Positions 22,359 to 56,100 of a stretch of 64,000 nucleotides of DNA are shown here, piece after piece; the first letter of the stretch is position 1, and each line of letters starts with the position of its first letter. The stretch comes from Aminomonas paucivorans DSM 12260 (GTDB lineage: Bacteria; Synergistota; Synergistia; Synergistales; Synergistaceae). The notes beneath the pieces are model-generated. The model searched no databases, had not been told where the DNA came from, and saw nothing but the letters and a program-made list of their open reading frames with translations. Position numbers and translations under genes: made by a program. Where the stretch lies: contig NZ_CM001022.1 of NCBI RefSeq assembly GCF_000165795.1, positions 1,645,812-1,709,811 of the forward strand. Direction: 5' to 3'.

Positions 22359-22709
22359 GGGGGCGAACGGTTTCGACGGCAGGACGGAGGGCACAGAAGC
22401 GCGGGTCGAGGCTGGGGCATCCTCGCTAATCAGGCTCCACAAGCAAAACGCCAACGATAACTACGCTCTGGCTGCTTAAGTAGCAGTCACGTTCCTCGGA
22501 GCTTCGCCACCGGGCTCCGAAGGGGCGACACGAAGGTGGCTGGGTTGTCGCAGCTTGTTTCCCGAGCGACGCCGAGACTCTAGGGGAACTGGAACGGAGG
22601 GATCCCGTCCGTGGGAGCCCCGAGTTTGAGACCAAATCGCGGACTACACCCGTAGGGCTTCTGGGCTGGCCCCTGTCGGACGGGGGTTCGATTCCCCCCG
22701 CCTCCACCA
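22359..22709 (+). ncRNA. ssrA: Transfer-messenger RNA (tmRNA)
   Basis: Rescues ribosomes on broken mRNAs together with SmpB. The 5' end GGGGGCGAACGGTTTCGAC and the 3' end (T-arm GGTTCGATTCC, then CGCCTCCACCA with encoded CCA) form the tRNA-like domain; GGGGGCG pairs with CGCCTCC. The tag reading frame ends NANDNYALAA followed by TAA TAG-like stops (near 22446-22482). I cannot fix the resume codon; a GCC giving (A)ANDNYALAA is most likely. Total about 351 nt, a normal one-piece tmRNA. Confidence 0.96.
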
Positions 22710-22869
22710 TAATCAGCGTGACCCATTGCGGCCACGATATCGAGGACCGGGTAATCTTGAGATTTCTCTCGTCAAGTTGCTTCGACTTGAAGAGGGTGTG
22801 CTCGGGGTTTATAACGGTCCTCCTTCCTTTTCCCACGCTGTCCTCCACACCCGATGGTCCTGTCAAGAC

Positions 22870-22898
22870 GAGACACCATCCTCCCTTGGCGGTATAAT
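22870..22898 (+). promoter_or_regulatory. Promoter of the structured RNA upstream of fliD
   Basis: GAGACA (22870-22875) and a perfect TATAAT (22893-22898) with 17-bp spacing. Transcription would start about 22905, directly at the 5' strand of the closing stem of the RNA described next. The 160 bp before it (22710-22869) hold only a short hairpin (TCAAGT/ACTTGA, around 22774-22792) and no gene I can support. Confidence 0.7.
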
Positions 22899-22904
22899 CT
22901 CGTG

Positions 22905-23070
22905 CGGGGGCGGGAAGGTTTTCACAAAAATGGGCTACCCACCCAAGCATGAGAAGACTTACCGCCAGCCGTCCGTTTGGCGGCAGTCCCCTAGGGACGC
23001 TAGCAGTACACCAAGGCTCCCACTCCTTGGTGAGGCTAGAAGCAGTGCGTGCACCAAGCACCCGCCCCCA
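22905..23070 (+). ncRNA. Probable structured non-coding RNA (6S-RNA-like candidate)
   Basis: A segment of about 166 nt begins just after a strong promoter and ends before a terminator hairpin. Its ends pair perfectly: GGGGGCGGG (22906-22914) with CCCGCCCCC (23061-23069). Inside are TGGG/CCCA, CCGCCA/TGGCGG, GTCCC/GGGAC and a long hairpin in which CTAGC and CACCAAGG (8 bp) pair with CCTTGGTG and GCTAG. No convincing coding frame starts inside it. The size and the long closing stem recall 6S RNA, but several internal hairpins do not fit a simple rod, so the family is left open. SRP RNA and RNase P motifs are missing. It could instead be a leader element of fliD. Confidence 0.5.
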
Positions 23071-23090
23071 TCTTCCTTCGTGGCAAAGGC

Positions 23091-23112
23091 GCTCCGGGCG
23101 GAGCCTCTTTTG
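23091..23112 (+). terminator. Terminator-like hairpin after the structured RNA
   Basis: GCTCC/GGAGC (23091-23095 with 23100-23104, loop GGGC) followed by CTCTTTTG. The stem is short, so termination may be partial, allowing read-through into fliD. Confidence 0.55.
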
Positions 23113-23278
23113 TGCGTATCAATCCATTGGTCCCCTCCTTGTACAAGAACGATTTGCTTGCCCTTCCCTCTTTTCCCGTCTTCCCCTACAGAAAAGGTCC
23201 GGTGAAGCCGAATACAAAGGAAGAATCCTGCCCTCTCCGGGAGGTCTTGGAGAGGTAGAGTCCAAGGAGGGACCGGAC

Positions 23279-25804
23279 ATGTCGGATCCTATGTTTCAGT
23301 TCACCGGTGTGGCCTCTCAGATCGATTGGGGCACCATGCTCGACAAGATCATGGCCAAGGCTCGCAAGCCCGAGGAACTCTGGAAGTCCGAGAAGGACAC
23401 CCTGGAACTCAAGAAAGGGCTTTACGAGGAGTTTTCCGGAGGCCTTAAGCAGTTCCGGACCACCCTTGCCTCCCTGAAGCTCCCTTCCACCTACCAGCAG
23501 AAGGCGGCGGAATTCGCCACCCTGGAGCCCAGCGGAAAGGACTCCAAATCCATCGTCACCGCCACGGTGGACACCAGCGCTGCCATCAACCAGTGGAAGA
23601 TCAAGGTCAACCAGACGGCCTTGAACGAGCGACGGGTTTCCGACCGCACGGACAGCGTCAGCGAGGCGCTGAACCTCGCCGGGACCTTCCGGGTCTACGT
23701 AGGCCAGCAGTGGGCGGACATCGAGGTCAAGTCCTCCGACAGCCTTCGAGACATCAATCTGAATCTGCAGAAGGCTCTGGACAGCAGCAGCAAACCCCTG
23801 GCCATCACCGCGAAGATCGTGGACAACCGGCTGGTTCTGGAAAGCTCCCAGTCCGGCCTGGGCTCCACGGGCCTGAGGAGCAGCGAGACCTTCACCATGG
23901 GCTCCTCCGACGCCGTCTACCTCACCCGCGAGGCCAGCGGCCTCTACCCAGACAGCGTGACCATCAAATCCGGCACCAAGACCTACACCGCAGGGACGGA
24001 CTTCACCTACGACGCGGCCCAAGGGCTCATCACCTGGACCGGGGCCACCAAACCCGCCGCCGGAACCACCTTCGAGGTTACCTACACCCAGGAATCCGTG
24101 ACCCGAGGTTCGGGAGCGGACCTGGAAGATTCTCTGGGCACCCCGGCACCGCATCCGGCGGGCATCACCATCAAGTCCGGTTCCACGTCCTACACCCTGG
24201 GGAAGGACTTCACCTACGACCAATCCGCAGGGACCATCACCTGGCTGGCCACGGGAAGCCGCCCCGCCGACGGGGCAACCTACACGGTCACCCACCAGCA
24301 CAGCTTCGACAACAACGTCTTCACCCTCCAGGACATCACGGGGACCCTGGTCTCCGGCACCCTGGCCTCGGGCACCGGGCTGGGGTTGGGGCAGGCGGCG
24401 AACCACACCGCCGCCCAGGACGCCCTGCTGGAAATCGACGGGCTCGCCGTGACCCGCTCCTCCAACGAGATCAACGACCTCATCGCCGGGGTGAAACTGA
24501 AGCTCGTGGGAACGGGGACGGTGAACCTCGACGTGACCCTGGATGCCGAGGCGGCGGTCAAGGGGATCCAGTCCTTTGTGTCCGCCTACAACGACGTGAT
24601 GGACTGGATCAACATCCGCCTCTCCGAAGAGAGCAAGGTGGACAAGAGCACCACCAGCGACGCCACGAAGAACGACGATTTCTACAAGAAGTTCGGCCTT
24701 CTCCATGGGGATTCCATGCTCTGGCAGATCAAGGACCAGATGCGCCTGTTCTTCGCCACCCCCGTCACGGGGCTTCCCAACGCCCAGACGACGAAGTCCT
24801 TTTCCTCCTCCACCAACTCCCTGGGCCTGTCGGGGACCTTCACGGTGGACGTGGCGGGCAAACGCGGCAAGATCGAAGTGACCCCTTCGGATTCTCTGGA
24901 GAGCCTCCGAGCAAAGCTCACGGGAATCAAGGACATCACCGAGGGAAGCGCCGGTACCGCCTTGGGAGGGGAGCTGCCCCTCACGGTGAGCATCCAGAAC
25001 GGGCGGCTGGTGATCCAGACCACCTCCAGCGGCACGCCGGGCACCACCACCCGCAGGGAATCGATCATGCACAACAACGGTACCAACGAGGACGTCCTTC
25101 CCTTCACTCCCAACGCCAATCCCCCCATCTCCGGCCGCTTCAGCATCAGCCAGGGGAGCACCGTCTTCCAGGAGGGGGTGGACTACCGCATCGAAACCCG
25201 ATCCGACGTGGAGCACGGCACGGTGGAGAACCGGGTGGTGTGGCTTTCCGGCAAATCCCCTTCGGCTTCCGCAGCCTACACGGTGAACTACACCTACGAC
25301 CCCAACATGACCGTGGTCACCACCGACGGGACGGGACTGGACTCCCTGGACTTCCACCAGGACAACAGCAAAACGTCCCTTGCCTACGCGGGACTCGCCA
25401 CGGAAAAGGCCAACTACGGGAAAAGCGGCAAGCTGGAGTTCGACACCAAGACCTTCATGAGCCGCATGACCACGGACAACGACGCCATCGCCAACCTCAT
25501 GTCCACCGCCATGGGCAAGTTGGACACGTACCTGGGCAACCTGGTGGACTCCAGCCAGACCACCGTGGGCGACACCACCGCGGTGAAGGGACGGGTGGCC
25601 AGCCAGATCAAGTCCATTGAGAACCAGATGAAGGCCATCGACAAGCGCATCACCGACTTCGAGGTGCGCATGACCCTGATGCAGCAGAGCTACTACTCCC
25701 AGTTCGTCGCCATGGAAAAAAACATGTCCAAACTGAACCAGCAGCTCTCCTGGATGACCAGCATGACCGCCAAACTGAACGGGACCGCCTCCGCCTCCAG
25801 CTGA
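23279..25804 (+). CDS. fliD: Flagellar hook-associated protein 2 / filament cap FliD
   Basis: Caps the flagellar filament and guides flagellin assembly; exported through the flagellar secretion apparatus. The 841-residue protein is longer than the usual 450-650. The N terminus (FTGVASQIDWGTMLDKIM) and the C-terminal coiled coil (IKSIENQMKAIDKRITDFEVRMTL then YYSQFVAMEKNMSKLNQQ) are typical of FliD. The middle carries three related beta-rich units of the form IKSG-x-TYT-x-G-x-DFTYD...G-x-I-x-W (about residues 220, 292 and, more diverged, 627), which account for much of the extra length. AAGGAGGG lies 8 bases before the ATG. fliS and flagellin genes are not next to it. Confidence 0.93.
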   Translation: MSDPMFQFTGVASQIDWGTMLDKIMAKARKPEELWKSEKDTLELKKGLYEEFSGGLKQFRTTLASLKLPSTYQQKAAEFATLEPSGKDSKSIVTATVDTSAAINQWKIKVNQTALNERRVSDRTDSVSEALNLAGTFRVYVGQQWADIEVKSSDSLRDINLNLQKALDSSSKPLAITAKIVDNRLVLESSQSGLGSTGLRSSETFTMGSSDAVYLTREASGLYPDSVTIKSGTKTYTAGTDFTYDAAQGLITWTGATKPAAGTTFEVTYTQESVTRGSGADLEDSLGTPAPHPAGITIKSGSTSYTLGKDFTYDQSAGTITWLATGSRPADGATYTVTHQHSFDNNVFTLQDITGTLVSGTLASGTGLGLGQAANHTAAQDALLEIDGLAVTRSSNEINDLIAGVKLKLVGTGTVNLDVTLDAEAAVKGIQSFVSAYNDVMDWINIRLSEESKVDKSTTSDATKNDDFYKKFGLLHGDSMLWQIKDQMRLFFATPVTGLPNAQTTKSFSSSTNSLGLSGTFTVDVAGKRGKIEVTPSDSLESLRAKLTGIKDITEGSAGTALGGELPLTVSIQNGRLVIQTTSSGTPGTTTRRESIMHNNGTNEDVLPFTPNANPPISGRFSISQGSTVFQEGVDYRIETRSDVEHGTVENRVVWLSGKSPSASAAYTVNYTYDPNMTVVTTDGTGLDSLDFHQDNSKTSLAYAGLATEKANYGKSGKLEFDTKTFMSRMTTDNDAIANLMSTAMGKLDTYLGNLVDSSQTTVGDTTAVKGRVASQIKSIENQMKAIDKRITDFEVRMTLMQQSYYSQFVAMEKNMSKLNQQLSWMTSMTAKLNGTASASS

Positions 25805-25838
25805 TCAGAGCGGGGACACCCTCCGGAACAGTTTACGT

Positions 25839-25890
25839 GGAGACGAGCGAAGGTGGGGCGGCCTAAGCCGCCCCACCTTCGCTCGTCTCC
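25839..25890. terminator. Long perfect hairpin between fliD and the response regulator gene
   Basis: A 24-bp perfect inverted repeat (25839-25862 with 25867-25890, loop CTAA) between convergent genes. Neither side has a T-run, so intrinsic termination is not certain; it may instead protect 3' ends. Confidence 0.7.
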
Positions 25891-37801: not shown

Positions 37802-38020
37802 GTGACCTCCCCGACGGAACCCGCCTGGGAAGCCTTCCGCGATCGGGTGACCTCCCTGGCCTCCCTCCGGGAGGACGAGGAGTTCCTCCGCTACGTGGCG
37901 GGGGTGACGGAGCGCATGTGGTGCCATGTCCTGGAGGACGAACACCTCCAACCGGAGCAGGCGGAATCCCGCCTTTTCGGGTTCTTTCAGGAGGACCGGC
38001 GCTTCTTCACCAAATCCTGA
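37802..38020 (+). CDS. Small uncharacterised protein downstream of nfnB
   Basis: A 72-residue soluble, acidic, helical protein (residues such as REDEEFLRYVAGVTERMWCHVLEDEHL). I recognise no family. GTG start 13 bp after the nfnB stop with GGGAGGG upstream, same codon use as nfnB, followed by a strong terminator, so it is probably the last gene of the nfn operon. Confidence 0.65.
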   Translation: MTSPTEPAWEAFRDRVTSLASLREDEEFLRYVAGVTERMWCHVLEDEHLQPEQAESRLFGFFQEDRRFFTKS

Positions 38021-38041
38021 AAGGAAACGGAACGGATCGAA

Positions 38042-38078
38042 AAGGGGGCGGTCCCCACAGGGACCGCCCCCTTCGTTT
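38042..38078. terminator. Rho-independent terminator of the nfn operon
   Basis: A 14-bp stem (38042-38055 with 38060-38073, loop CACA) followed by CGTTTTA. Also lies at the 3' end of the converging EF-G-like gene. Confidence 0.9.
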
Positions 38079-38106
38079 TACGCCCTTCGGAACCGGCAAG
38101 GGAGTC

Positions 38107-40200
38107 CTACTCCTCCTCCTCCGTCTTCCGTTCCGCCGCAGCGGCGGCGATGACCTTCTTCGCCGTCTCGGCGGGAACCTCCTCGTAGTGGGAGAACTCC
38201 ATGGTGAAGTTGCCCCGCCCGGAGGTCATGGAGCGAAGGATGATGGCGTACCGGAACAGCTCCGAAAGGGGGCACTGGGCCTTGACGACCTGGAGTTTCC
38301 CGTTGCTGTCGATCCCGGCGATGCGGCCTCGACGGCTGTTGAAGTCCCCCATCACGTCCCCGAGGCACTCCTCGGGCACCGTGACCTCCACGTTCATGAT
38401 GGGTTCCTGGAGCACCGGGGCGGCGTCCGTGAAGGCCTTCTTGAAGGCCATGGACGCAGCGATCTTGAAGGCCATTTCCGAGGAGTCCACGTCGTGGTAG
38501 GAACCGTCGAAGATGGCGCAGGAGAAGTCCACGGCGGGGTAGCCCGCCAGGACCCCCTTGGCAGCCGCCTCCCGAAGCCCCTTCTCCGCCGCGGGGATGA
38601 AGTTCTTGGGGACCACGCCCCCCACCACGCGATCCAGGAAGGTGACCCCGGAGCTCTTCTCGGCGGGAGCAAGCTCGAACCACACATCCCCATACTGGCC
38701 CCGTCCCCCGGTCTGCTTCTTGTACTTGCCCTGGGCCTTGGCGGTCTTCTTGATGGTCTCCCGGTAAGGGACCTTCGGGGTGTGGGTGTCCAGCTCCACC
38801 TTGTAGCGTTCCTTGATGCGGGAGAGGACGATGTCCAGGTGCAGGTCTCCCATGCCGGAGAAGACTGAATCCCCCGTCTCCGGGTTCTTCAGGAAGCCCA
38901 GGGTGCGGTCCTCTTCCAGGACCTTGTGCATGGCGTTGCCGAGCTTGTCCTCGTCCGCCCGGCTCTTCGGGGTGACCGCCACGCTGTACACGGGCTTGGG
39001 GAAGGCGATGGGGGGAAAGCGAAGCTCCTGTCCCTTCACGCTCAGGGTGTCTCCCACCTGGGTGCTGTCCAGCTTGGGGATCGTGAGGATGTCCCCCACG
39101 CAGATATCCTTGACCTCCTCCCCGTCCTTGCCCTTCATGAGGCGGAAGGAGCTGATACGCTCCTCCTCCCCCCGAGTGACGTTGAGGATGTTCTGGTCGC
39201 TGGTGAGCTTCCCGGAAAAGACCCGAAGGAAGGAGAGCTTGCCCACATAGGGGTCCACCATGACCTTGAAGCAGAGGGCATAGAAGGGAGCCTGGGGATC
39301 GGGAGCCACCGTCGTCTCGGCCCCTTCGCCTTTCAGGGCGGCTCGGGGGGCCATCTCCAGGGGGGAGGGCAGCACCTCCGCCACCACGTCCAGAAGCTGG
39401 CACACCCCCACGTTCAGGGTGGTGGACCCGGGAAGGACCGGAAAGACCAGCCGGCCCAGCACGGCCTTGCGCAAGGCTCCGGCGAGCTCCTCCTGGGTCA
39501 GCTCCTCCCCGTCCAGGTAGCGCATCATGAGGTCGTCGTCCGCCTCCACGATCCGCTCCACCAGGGTATCCCGGACCTTCTGCGCCTGTTCCTGCAGGTC
39601 CGAGGGCACGGGGACCTCCTCGAAGGCCTTGCTCCCGTCCGCCTTGTACTGGTAGGCCTTCCCGGAGAGGACGTCCACCAGCCCCTTGAAGGAGGCCTCC
39701 TGCCCCATGGGAAGAAACAGGGGCAGGGCCCGGTCGGAGAGGGATTCCTGGATCTCCGAAAGGGTCTTCTCGAAGTCCGCGTGCTCTCGGTCCATCTTGC
39801 TCACGAAGAAGAGGGCGGGGATCTTCAGGTCTTCCGCCTGATCCCAGGCACGCTGGGTCTGGACCTCTACCCCGTGGACGCCGCTGACCACCAGAAGGGC
39901 CGAATCCGCCACCCGGAGGGCGCAGACCTGCTCTCCCTGAAAATCCGCGAAACCCGGGGTGTCCAGGACGTACAGCGTCCGGCTCTTATGGGAAAGGGTC
40001 GTCACCGCGGTGCTGATGGAAATCTGTCTTTTGTGCTCCTCCGCATCGAAGTCCGAAACGGTGTTCTTGTCCTCCACCTTGCCCATCCGGGAGATGGCGC
40101 CCGTATCGAAAAGCATGGCCTCGGTGAGGGAGGTCTTCCCTGCCCCACCGTGCGACACGACGGCCAGCGTCCGGATATCCTCAGGTTTCCTAGTCCCCAT
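38107..40200 (-). CDS. Elongation factor G paralogue (EF-G2-like GTPase)
   Basis: Translational GTPase of 697 residues with all EF-G domains. G1 is SHGGAGKT (residues 16-23) in place of the usual GHIDAGKT; G3 is DTPGFADF; G4 is SKMD, with Ser in place of Asn. Domains II to V follow, with KVPYRETIKK, TGGRGQYGDVW and, in domain IV, VVPKNFIPAAEKGLREA. The same G1 type is known from the second EF-G (FusB/EF-G-2) of several bacteria, so a main translocation role is less likely than a specialised one (recycling, stress). The canonical fusA is not in the window. ATG 40200 has AGGAGG 8 bases upstream. Confidence 0.9.
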   Translation of the reverse strand: MGTRKPEDIRTLAVVSHGGAGKTSLTEAMLFDTGAISRMGKVEDKNTVSDFDAEEHKRQISISTAVTTLSHKSRTLYVLDTPGFADFQGEQVCALRVADSALLVVSGVHGVEVQTQRAWDQAEDLKIPALFFVSKMDREHADFEKTLSEIQESLSDRALPLFLPMGQEASFKGLVDVLSGKAYQYKADGSKAFEEVPVPSDLQEQAQKVRDTLVERIVEADDDLMMRYLDGEELTQEELAGALRKAVLGRLVFPVLPGSTTLNVGVCQLLDVVAEVLPSPLEMAPRAALKGEGAETTVAPDPQAPFYALCFKVMVDPYVGKLSFLRVFSGKLTSDQNILNVTRGEEERISSFRLMKGKDGEEVKDICVGDILTIPKLDSTQVGDTLSVKGQELRFPPIAFPKPVYSVAVTPKSRADEDKLGNAMHKVLEEDRTLGFLKNPETGDSVFSGMGDLHLDIVLSRIKERYKVELDTHTPKVPYRETIKKTAKAQGKYKKQTGGRGQYGDVWFELAPAEKSSGVTFLDRVVGGVVPKNFIPAAEKGLREAAAKGVLAGYPAVDFSCAIFDGSYHDVDSSEMAFKIAASMAFKKAFTDAAPVLQEPIMNVEVTVPEECLGDVMGDFNSRRGRIAGIDSNGKLQVVKAQCPLSELFRYAIILRSMTSGRGNFTMEFSHYEEVPAETAKKVIAAAAAERKTEEEE

Positions 40201-55540: not shown

Positions 55541-56100
55541 CCTTCCTGCCCCTCCCTTCTGCTGTACACACAGCCGCACCAGGTCTGGCGGTACAACCCC
55601 AGCCTGTGGCTTTCCGTCACCGAACGTTTGAATCCGTCGTTTTTCCGCCACACCCGATCCTCCCAGAGGAGACCGAACTGGGAGGCCACCTGTCGCCCCA
55701 TGCGGTTGATCCGCTCCGGATCCTTGTGGGGGCTGATGGTAAGGGTGGTGCAAAGGTGGGTGCACCCCTCTCTTTGCGCCGCCCGTGCCGCCCCCAGGAG
55801 CTGCAGGGCGAAGCACAGCCCGCAGCGGCGACCTCCCTCGGGCTCATGCTTCAAAGCCGCGACCGCTTCCAGCCATCGGGGGGGATCGTAGGGCTCGAAA
55901 ACCGCGGCCCCTCCCCGGCTTTCCGCCAGGGCGCGGACACTCTCCGCCCTGCGGCGGTATTCCTCTTCCGGGTGGATGTGGTGGCCCGTGAAGTACCCCG
56001 TCACGCGAAAGCCCTGGGCCTCCAGATCCGGCCAGGGGACCGTCCCGTCGGGGGCGCAACAGAGATGGAGCAGCAGGGCGATCCCCTTAGAACTCTCCAT
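55537..56100 (-). CDS. queH: Epoxyqueuosine reductase QueH
   Basis: Last step of queuosine synthesis in tRNA, replacing QueG in many anaerobes (187 residues). The cysteine pairs are LLHLCCAPDGT (residues about 12-22), GGRRCGLCFALQL and QTWCGCVYS near the C terminus, with TISPHKDPERIN and FKRSVTESHRLGLY in between, all typical of the DUF208/QueH family. Overlaps trmI by 14 bp. Confidence 0.94.
   Translation of the reverse strand: MESSKGIALLLHLCCAPDGTVPWPDLEAQGFRVTGYFTGHHIHPEEEYRRRAESVRALAESRGGAAVFEPYDPPRWLEAVAALKHEPEGGRRCGLCFALQLLGAARAAQREGCTHLCTTLTISPHKDPERINRMGRQVASQFGLLWEDRVWRKNDGFKRSVTESHRLGLYRQTWCGCVYSRREGQEG

Follow-up and report, generated by a model that had tools for sequence, protein, structure and literature searches.

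A probable structured non-coding RNA gene between ssrA and fliD in Aminomonas paucivorans

The intergenic region between ssrA and fliD of Aminomonas paucivorans probably houses an independent non-coding RNA (ncRNA) gene, with a promoter of its own, a predicted fold beyond chance expectation and no coding frame. Taken as a whole, the explanation we consider likely is that of an independent, constitutively transcribed, lineage-specific and structured ncRNA gene, the product of which is likely to act in trans as a regulator. If transcribed, the candidate would add a highly structured and so far unannotated RNA gene to the Synergistota, a phylum for which we found no small-RNA study in the literature searched. 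A first-pass annotation of the same DNA had offered three readings (a divergent 6S RNA, a new ncRNA or a leader controlling fliD); the second is supported here by the promoter, the fold, the lack of coding character and the lack of any Rfam match, the first can be set aside and the third has become unlikely. The candidate also illustrates a limit of comparative ncRNA discovery, in that a convincing RNA gene in a single genome can be invisible to homology methods.

The host genome is a single contig of 2,630,170 bp, and positions given below are those of the window, the whole 64-kb stretch of DNA analysed, unless stated otherwise. Genes follow one another in the order tRNA-Pro, smpB, ssrA, candidate RNA, fliD, and the two immediate neighbours of the candidate are as follows.

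22359..22709, + strand: ssrA (tmRNA, tag ANDNYALAA), upstream neighbour
23279..25804, + strand: fliD, downstream neighbour, its start backed by alignment with Thermanaerovibrio FliD

Between them lies a non-coding gap of 569 bp (22710-23278), in good agreement with the 570 bp without a coding frame reported at first pass. Open reading frames within the gap, on both strands, gave codon scores between -0.14 and -0.63, whereas genes scored +0.29 to +0.48; the latter are the five neighbouring genes on which the score was trained. Five intergenic reading frames were compared with Pfam and none gave a match above cut-off.

The limits of the proposed transcript were placed using a promoter and a terminator-like hairpin.

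22870..22898, + strand: sigma-70-type promoter GAGACA-17 nt-TATAAT, score 10/12, 7 nt before the closing stem P1
22904..23112, + strand: proposed transcript of ~209 nt including the terminator hairpin, as predicted from the promoter and the terminator-like hairpin
23084..23112, + strand: terminator-like GC hairpin (core 23091-23104) and short U-tract CUCUUUU

The promoter, already described as strong in the first-pass annotation, is the sole such site within 22700-23300, where 0.1 would be expected. Only two sites in the 64 kb, both strands included, combine a score of 10/12 or more with a near-perfect -10 box, and the other sits before tRNA-Pro. Promoters of established RNA genes in the same genome reach the same score of 10/12: TTGCAA-16-TATAAT for 6S RNA, TGGACA-16-TATACT for RNase P RNA and TTGACG-18-TACAAT for tRNA-Pro. 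In these three the distance from promoter to 5′ end is 8-10 nt, compared with 7 nt from promoter to stem in the candidate. Transcription would be expected to start at G22904 or G22906, and an RNA trimmed at its closing stem would measure about 165 nt. The terminator-like stem noted at first pass is likewise present, at 23091-23104 and followed by CTCTTTT; because this U-tract is short (4 T), the predicted terminator is moderate at best.

Folding of the intervening sequence predicted a single dominant architecture, a junction of five helices whose pair probabilities are high, made up of the following elements.

22906..22914, + strand: closing stem P1, 5′ strand GGGGGCGGG, pair probabilities 0.65-1.0
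23061..23069, + strand: closing stem P1, 3′ strand CCCGCCCCC, forming 9 perfect pairs with GGGGGCGGG
22916..22960, + strand: arm P2 of the predicted fold, 8 bp + 2 bp + 4 bp, loop CUACCCA (strands 22916-22926/22950-22960; 4-bp tip 22931-22934/22942-22945)
22962..22983, + strand: hairpin P3, at most 7 bp, loop CCGUCCGU, pair probability ~0.5-0.75 (strands 22962-22968/22977-22983)
22986..22998, + strand: hairpin P4, 5 bp, loop CUA, pair probability 0.99-1.0 (strands 22986-22990/22994-22998)
23000..23039, + strand: arm P5, 5 bp + 8 bp, loop CUCCCACU, pair probability 0.93-1.0 (5 bp, 23000-23004/23035-23039; 8 bp, 23009-23016/23025-23032)
23040..23060, + strand: mostly unpaired stretch beginning GAAGCAGUGCGUGCACCAAGC, 5′ of the P1 3′ strand

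The fold has a minimum free energy (MFE) of -75.5 kcal/mol (z = -4.1), matched by none of 1,000 shuffles, and the segment 22901-23075 gave z = -3.9. After correction for dinucleotide composition, the candidate ranked 12th against 3114 other 164-nt segments of the window, within the top 0.4%. The perfect 9-bp closing stem seen at first pass was recovered as P1, and a closing stem of at least 9 bp arose in only one of 5,000 dinucleotide shuffles; at least nine pairs near both ends of the MFE fold occurred, however, in 12% of native 164-nt segments, so that the stem is striking against shuffles and less so against native GC-rich DNA. Within it, the earlier 8-bp plus 5-bp hairpin corresponds exactly to P5 and the two small hairpins to P3 and P4, but the count of interior elements was incomplete, the P2 arm at 22916-22960 having been overlooked. 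A near-repeat, AGCAGTACACCAAG and AGCAGTGCGTGCACCAAG, was also observed in 23003-23058, at a length close to chance expectation; the second CACCAAG might displace the 5′ strand of P5, a possible conformational switch.

Searches for homologues were negative at every level. At the DNA level, 40 relatives and 188 Synergistota genomes yielded short matches only; those examined, at 22902-22940 and elsewhere, lay in coding-looking sequence and were judged to be chance. A match on L111 fell within a duplicated element of genome G062 and was judged likewise; this GC-rich element (AGAAGGTTTTCACAGGCAGGCAACCGG..., L111 1510-1600 and ~2515-2676) is probably an interspersed repeat. Covariance-model searches of 41 and of 188 genomes found no homologue, with the limited sensitivity of a single-sequence model under strict filters. 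The candidate was not found in the ssrA and fliD neighbourhoods of relatives, and the sister genus Thermanaerovibrio lacks it beside both genes. A GTDB scan with FliD returned distant loci only and nothing useful, and no second Aminomonas species was among the relatives searched. Absence beyond the species may thus reflect true restriction or fast divergence alike. Orphan intergenic regions are common in the Synergistota (PMC6429828), and in Thermovirga lienii 31 of the 78 intergenic regions examined were without a homologue (PMC6429828). With these ‘unnamed’ regions (PMC6429828), likened here by description only, the candidate shares its phylum, the lack of a homologue and the lack of an assigned function; unlike them, it has a clear promoter, an aligned closing stem and a terminator-like hairpin.

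Several findings count against the ncRNA reading: no homologue in 188 Synergistota genomes, its absence beside ssrA and fliD in the sister genus, a short U-tract, the 11 of 3114 native segments that fold better, a C-richness of the loops within the range of shuffles and a host in which no Hfq was detected. The region might instead be GC-rich DNA that is non-functional or decaying and whose fold and promoter arose by chance, for instance as remnants of a rearrangement involving fliD and ssrA. Such a reading would account for the missing homologues, fits the frequency of homologue-less intergenic regions in the phylum (31/78 in T. lienii; PMC6429828) and draws on a gene order unlike that of the sister genus. 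Two of the genomes searched, G002 and G022, appear to be Thermanaerovibrio; in G002 (probably T. acidaminovorans) fliD and ssrA converge, ~85 bp apart, whereas in A. paucivorans the two genes stand in tandem, and this difference in orientation suggests that the ssrA-fliD gap is a point of rearrangement. Against this explanation, which we hold to be unlikely, the promoter, a closing stem aligned with the start, a strong fold and a terminator are combined in the right order and at the right spacing.

The restricted distribution of the candidate would also suit an RNA belonging to a mobile element, or to a defence or selfish system, brought into the gap, and the 3′ ends of ssrA genes are common integration sites. 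Against this, no meaningful similarity to the candidate was found in phages or plasmids, two exact-pattern scans of viral contigs came back empty, no second copy exists in the host genome and the 569-bp gap contains no protein gene. We therefore regard a mobile origin as very improbable. The own-genome match examined (L002) lies inside a histidine-kinase-like gene and was rejected.

The reading of the region as a 5′ leader of fliD, a riboswitch or attenuator in which a conditional terminator would allow read-through into fliD mRNA, draws on the position of the candidate on the fliD strand, its hairpin separated from the start of fliD by 166 nt. Two short matches could serve such a device, a 7-nt match that could pair 23014-23020 with the 3′ arm of the terminator and an 8-nt match complementary to the Shine-Dalgarno region of fliD; chance would give matches of about these lengths. 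Against a leader speaks a separate promoter predicted for fliD, 75 nt past the terminator-like hairpin.

23187..23214, + strand: sigma-28-type promoter of fliD, TACA-N16-GCCGAATA (full site TACAGAAAAGGTCCGGTGAAGCCGAATA), outside the RNA gene and marking its downstream limit

This pattern has four matches in 2.63 Mb, compared with one for a reversed-pattern control; another of the four precedes a flagellin gene (L117), and a corresponding site, TAAA-N16-TCCGAAAA, stands 61-76 nt before fliD in both Thermanaerovibrio genomes. The candidate RNA itself is absent upstream of fliD in those two genomes and was not found near the other fliD relatives searched. By duplex energy with the RNA, the fliD start region ranked 24th of 94 candidate start regions, and in a joint fold with the fliD region the RNA’s domain was unchanged. 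Since fliD has its own conserved flagellar promoter, shared in type with the flagellin gene and both Thermanaerovibrio fliD genes, the leader role proposed at first pass is disfavoured and we hold it to be improbable; two separate transcription units appear to be the most economical reading. A. paucivorans is reported to lack both flagella and motility (PMC3035310).

Were the candidate a divergent 6S RNA or another 6S paralogue, it would trap sigma-70 RNA polymerase and template product RNAs. There are points of likeness to 6S (RF00013): the candidate falls in the same length class, has sealed 5′ and 3′ ends, forms a single intergenic gene and carries a sigma-70 promoter, at 6S-like spacing, a few nucleotides ahead of its first stem. 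Its predicted five-helix, multibranched junction nevertheless differs from the 6S design, in which a long closing stem, a large central bubble and a terminal stem make up a rod. Moreover, the host has a 6S RNA of its own at G000:C1:1892360-1892538, 0.22 Mb from the candidate, which scores 46.1 bits with the Rfam model (cut-off 46.4). The search with that model suggested in the first-pass annotation gave no match to the candidate at E-values up to 10. We also built a Synergistota 6S covariance model from 18 aligned 6S sequences of the phylum. It gave 159.1 bits to the host’s true 6S RNA and 77-128 bits to five 6S loci left out of its building, against at most 4.6 bits, a chance-level score, for the candidate region. 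Identity with 6S RNA, as judged from these comparisons, is rejected, and a 6S-like role is barely credible.

The remaining familiar RNAs were equally unhelpful as identities. RNase P RNA (276.8 bits), SRP RNA (86.8 bits) and tmRNA (178.5 bits, the separate gene ssrA) were all placed elsewhere in the host by covariance matches, none of them matched the candidate and each was discarded; indeed, the candidate has no match to known Rfam families. Using cmscan, we recorded a sub-threshold match to the permuted tmRNA family RF04321 (22678-22925, 36.9 of 47 bits), which links the 3′ end of ssrA with the opening 20 nt of the candidate. A duplicated or permuted tmRNA was rejected, since most of the match is owed to the 3′ end of ssrA, and the resemblance was judged to be chance; tmRNA similarity was below the shuffle mean, with 861 of 1,000 shuffles scoring as high. 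The first 17 nt of the RNA do resemble a tmRNA 5′ end (GGGGGCG..AAGGTTT; RF00023, RF04321), but the candidate lacks a recognised tRNA-like 3′ end and ssrA is intact. Bacterial Y RNAs (YrlA, which functions with a Ro/TROVE protein) are similar in outline, with a stem closing the ends and a branched distal part; unlike a Y RNA, however, the candidate stands without an Rfam match in a host genome where no Ro/TROVE protein was detected. Nor was Hfq detected in the host genome, and the tail is only CUCUUUU rather than the long U-tail of an Hfq-dependent sRNA. Without a detected Hfq or Ro protein, both the Hfq-dependent and the Y-RNA modes of action are unlikely. A CsrA sponge was also discarded, the hairpin loops being without GGA.

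We accordingly return to an independent ncRNA gene. On the proposed mechanism, housekeeping RNA polymerase, directed by the promoter at 22870-22898, would initiate on the first base of P1 or beside it, giving constitutive synthesis, and would stop at the hairpin 23084-23112 or slightly past it. The monocistronic RNA would then fold as a compact five-helix junction, its ends sealed by P1 and so presumably shielded from exonucleases; with both ends paired, it should be stable. Its most likely role would be that of a trans-acting regulator, in which the loops CUACCCA, CCGUCCGU and CUCCCACU, or the single-stranded 3′ section, would contact target mRNAs or a protein without Hfq.

RNAs of the RsaE/RoxS type base-pair with Shine-Dalgarno sequences through C-rich loops, and the candidate’s predicted exposed CCC/CUCCC loops resemble theirs. 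All three loops are C-rich and would suit pairing with purine-rich Shine-Dalgarno sequences; unlike the RsaE/RoxS type, this C-richness is not significant (112 of 1,000 shuffles) and comes with no conserved target shown. With no Hfq detected in the host, any such pairing would be Hfq-independent. Base pairing through the loops is a tentative choice of mechanism. It is similarly speculative that the candidate represents a new class of Hfq-independent ncRNA, a sealed five-helix RNA made constitutively, restricted to Aminomonas or too diverged to be recognised elsewhere, and serving as a global RNA or protein regulator.

Other stretches of the window also fold well. At 55638-55841 and 37926-38129, composition-corrected folds were about as strong as that of the candidate (best z between about -3.6 and -3.9). 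A near-perfect inverted repeat at 25838-25890, with ~25 bp per arm (GAGACGAGCGAAGGTGGGGCGGC..GCCGCCCCACCTTCGCTCGTCTC), gives the strongest fold of all 64 kb; it lies between fliD and a convergent response-regulator gene and is probably a bidirectional terminator.
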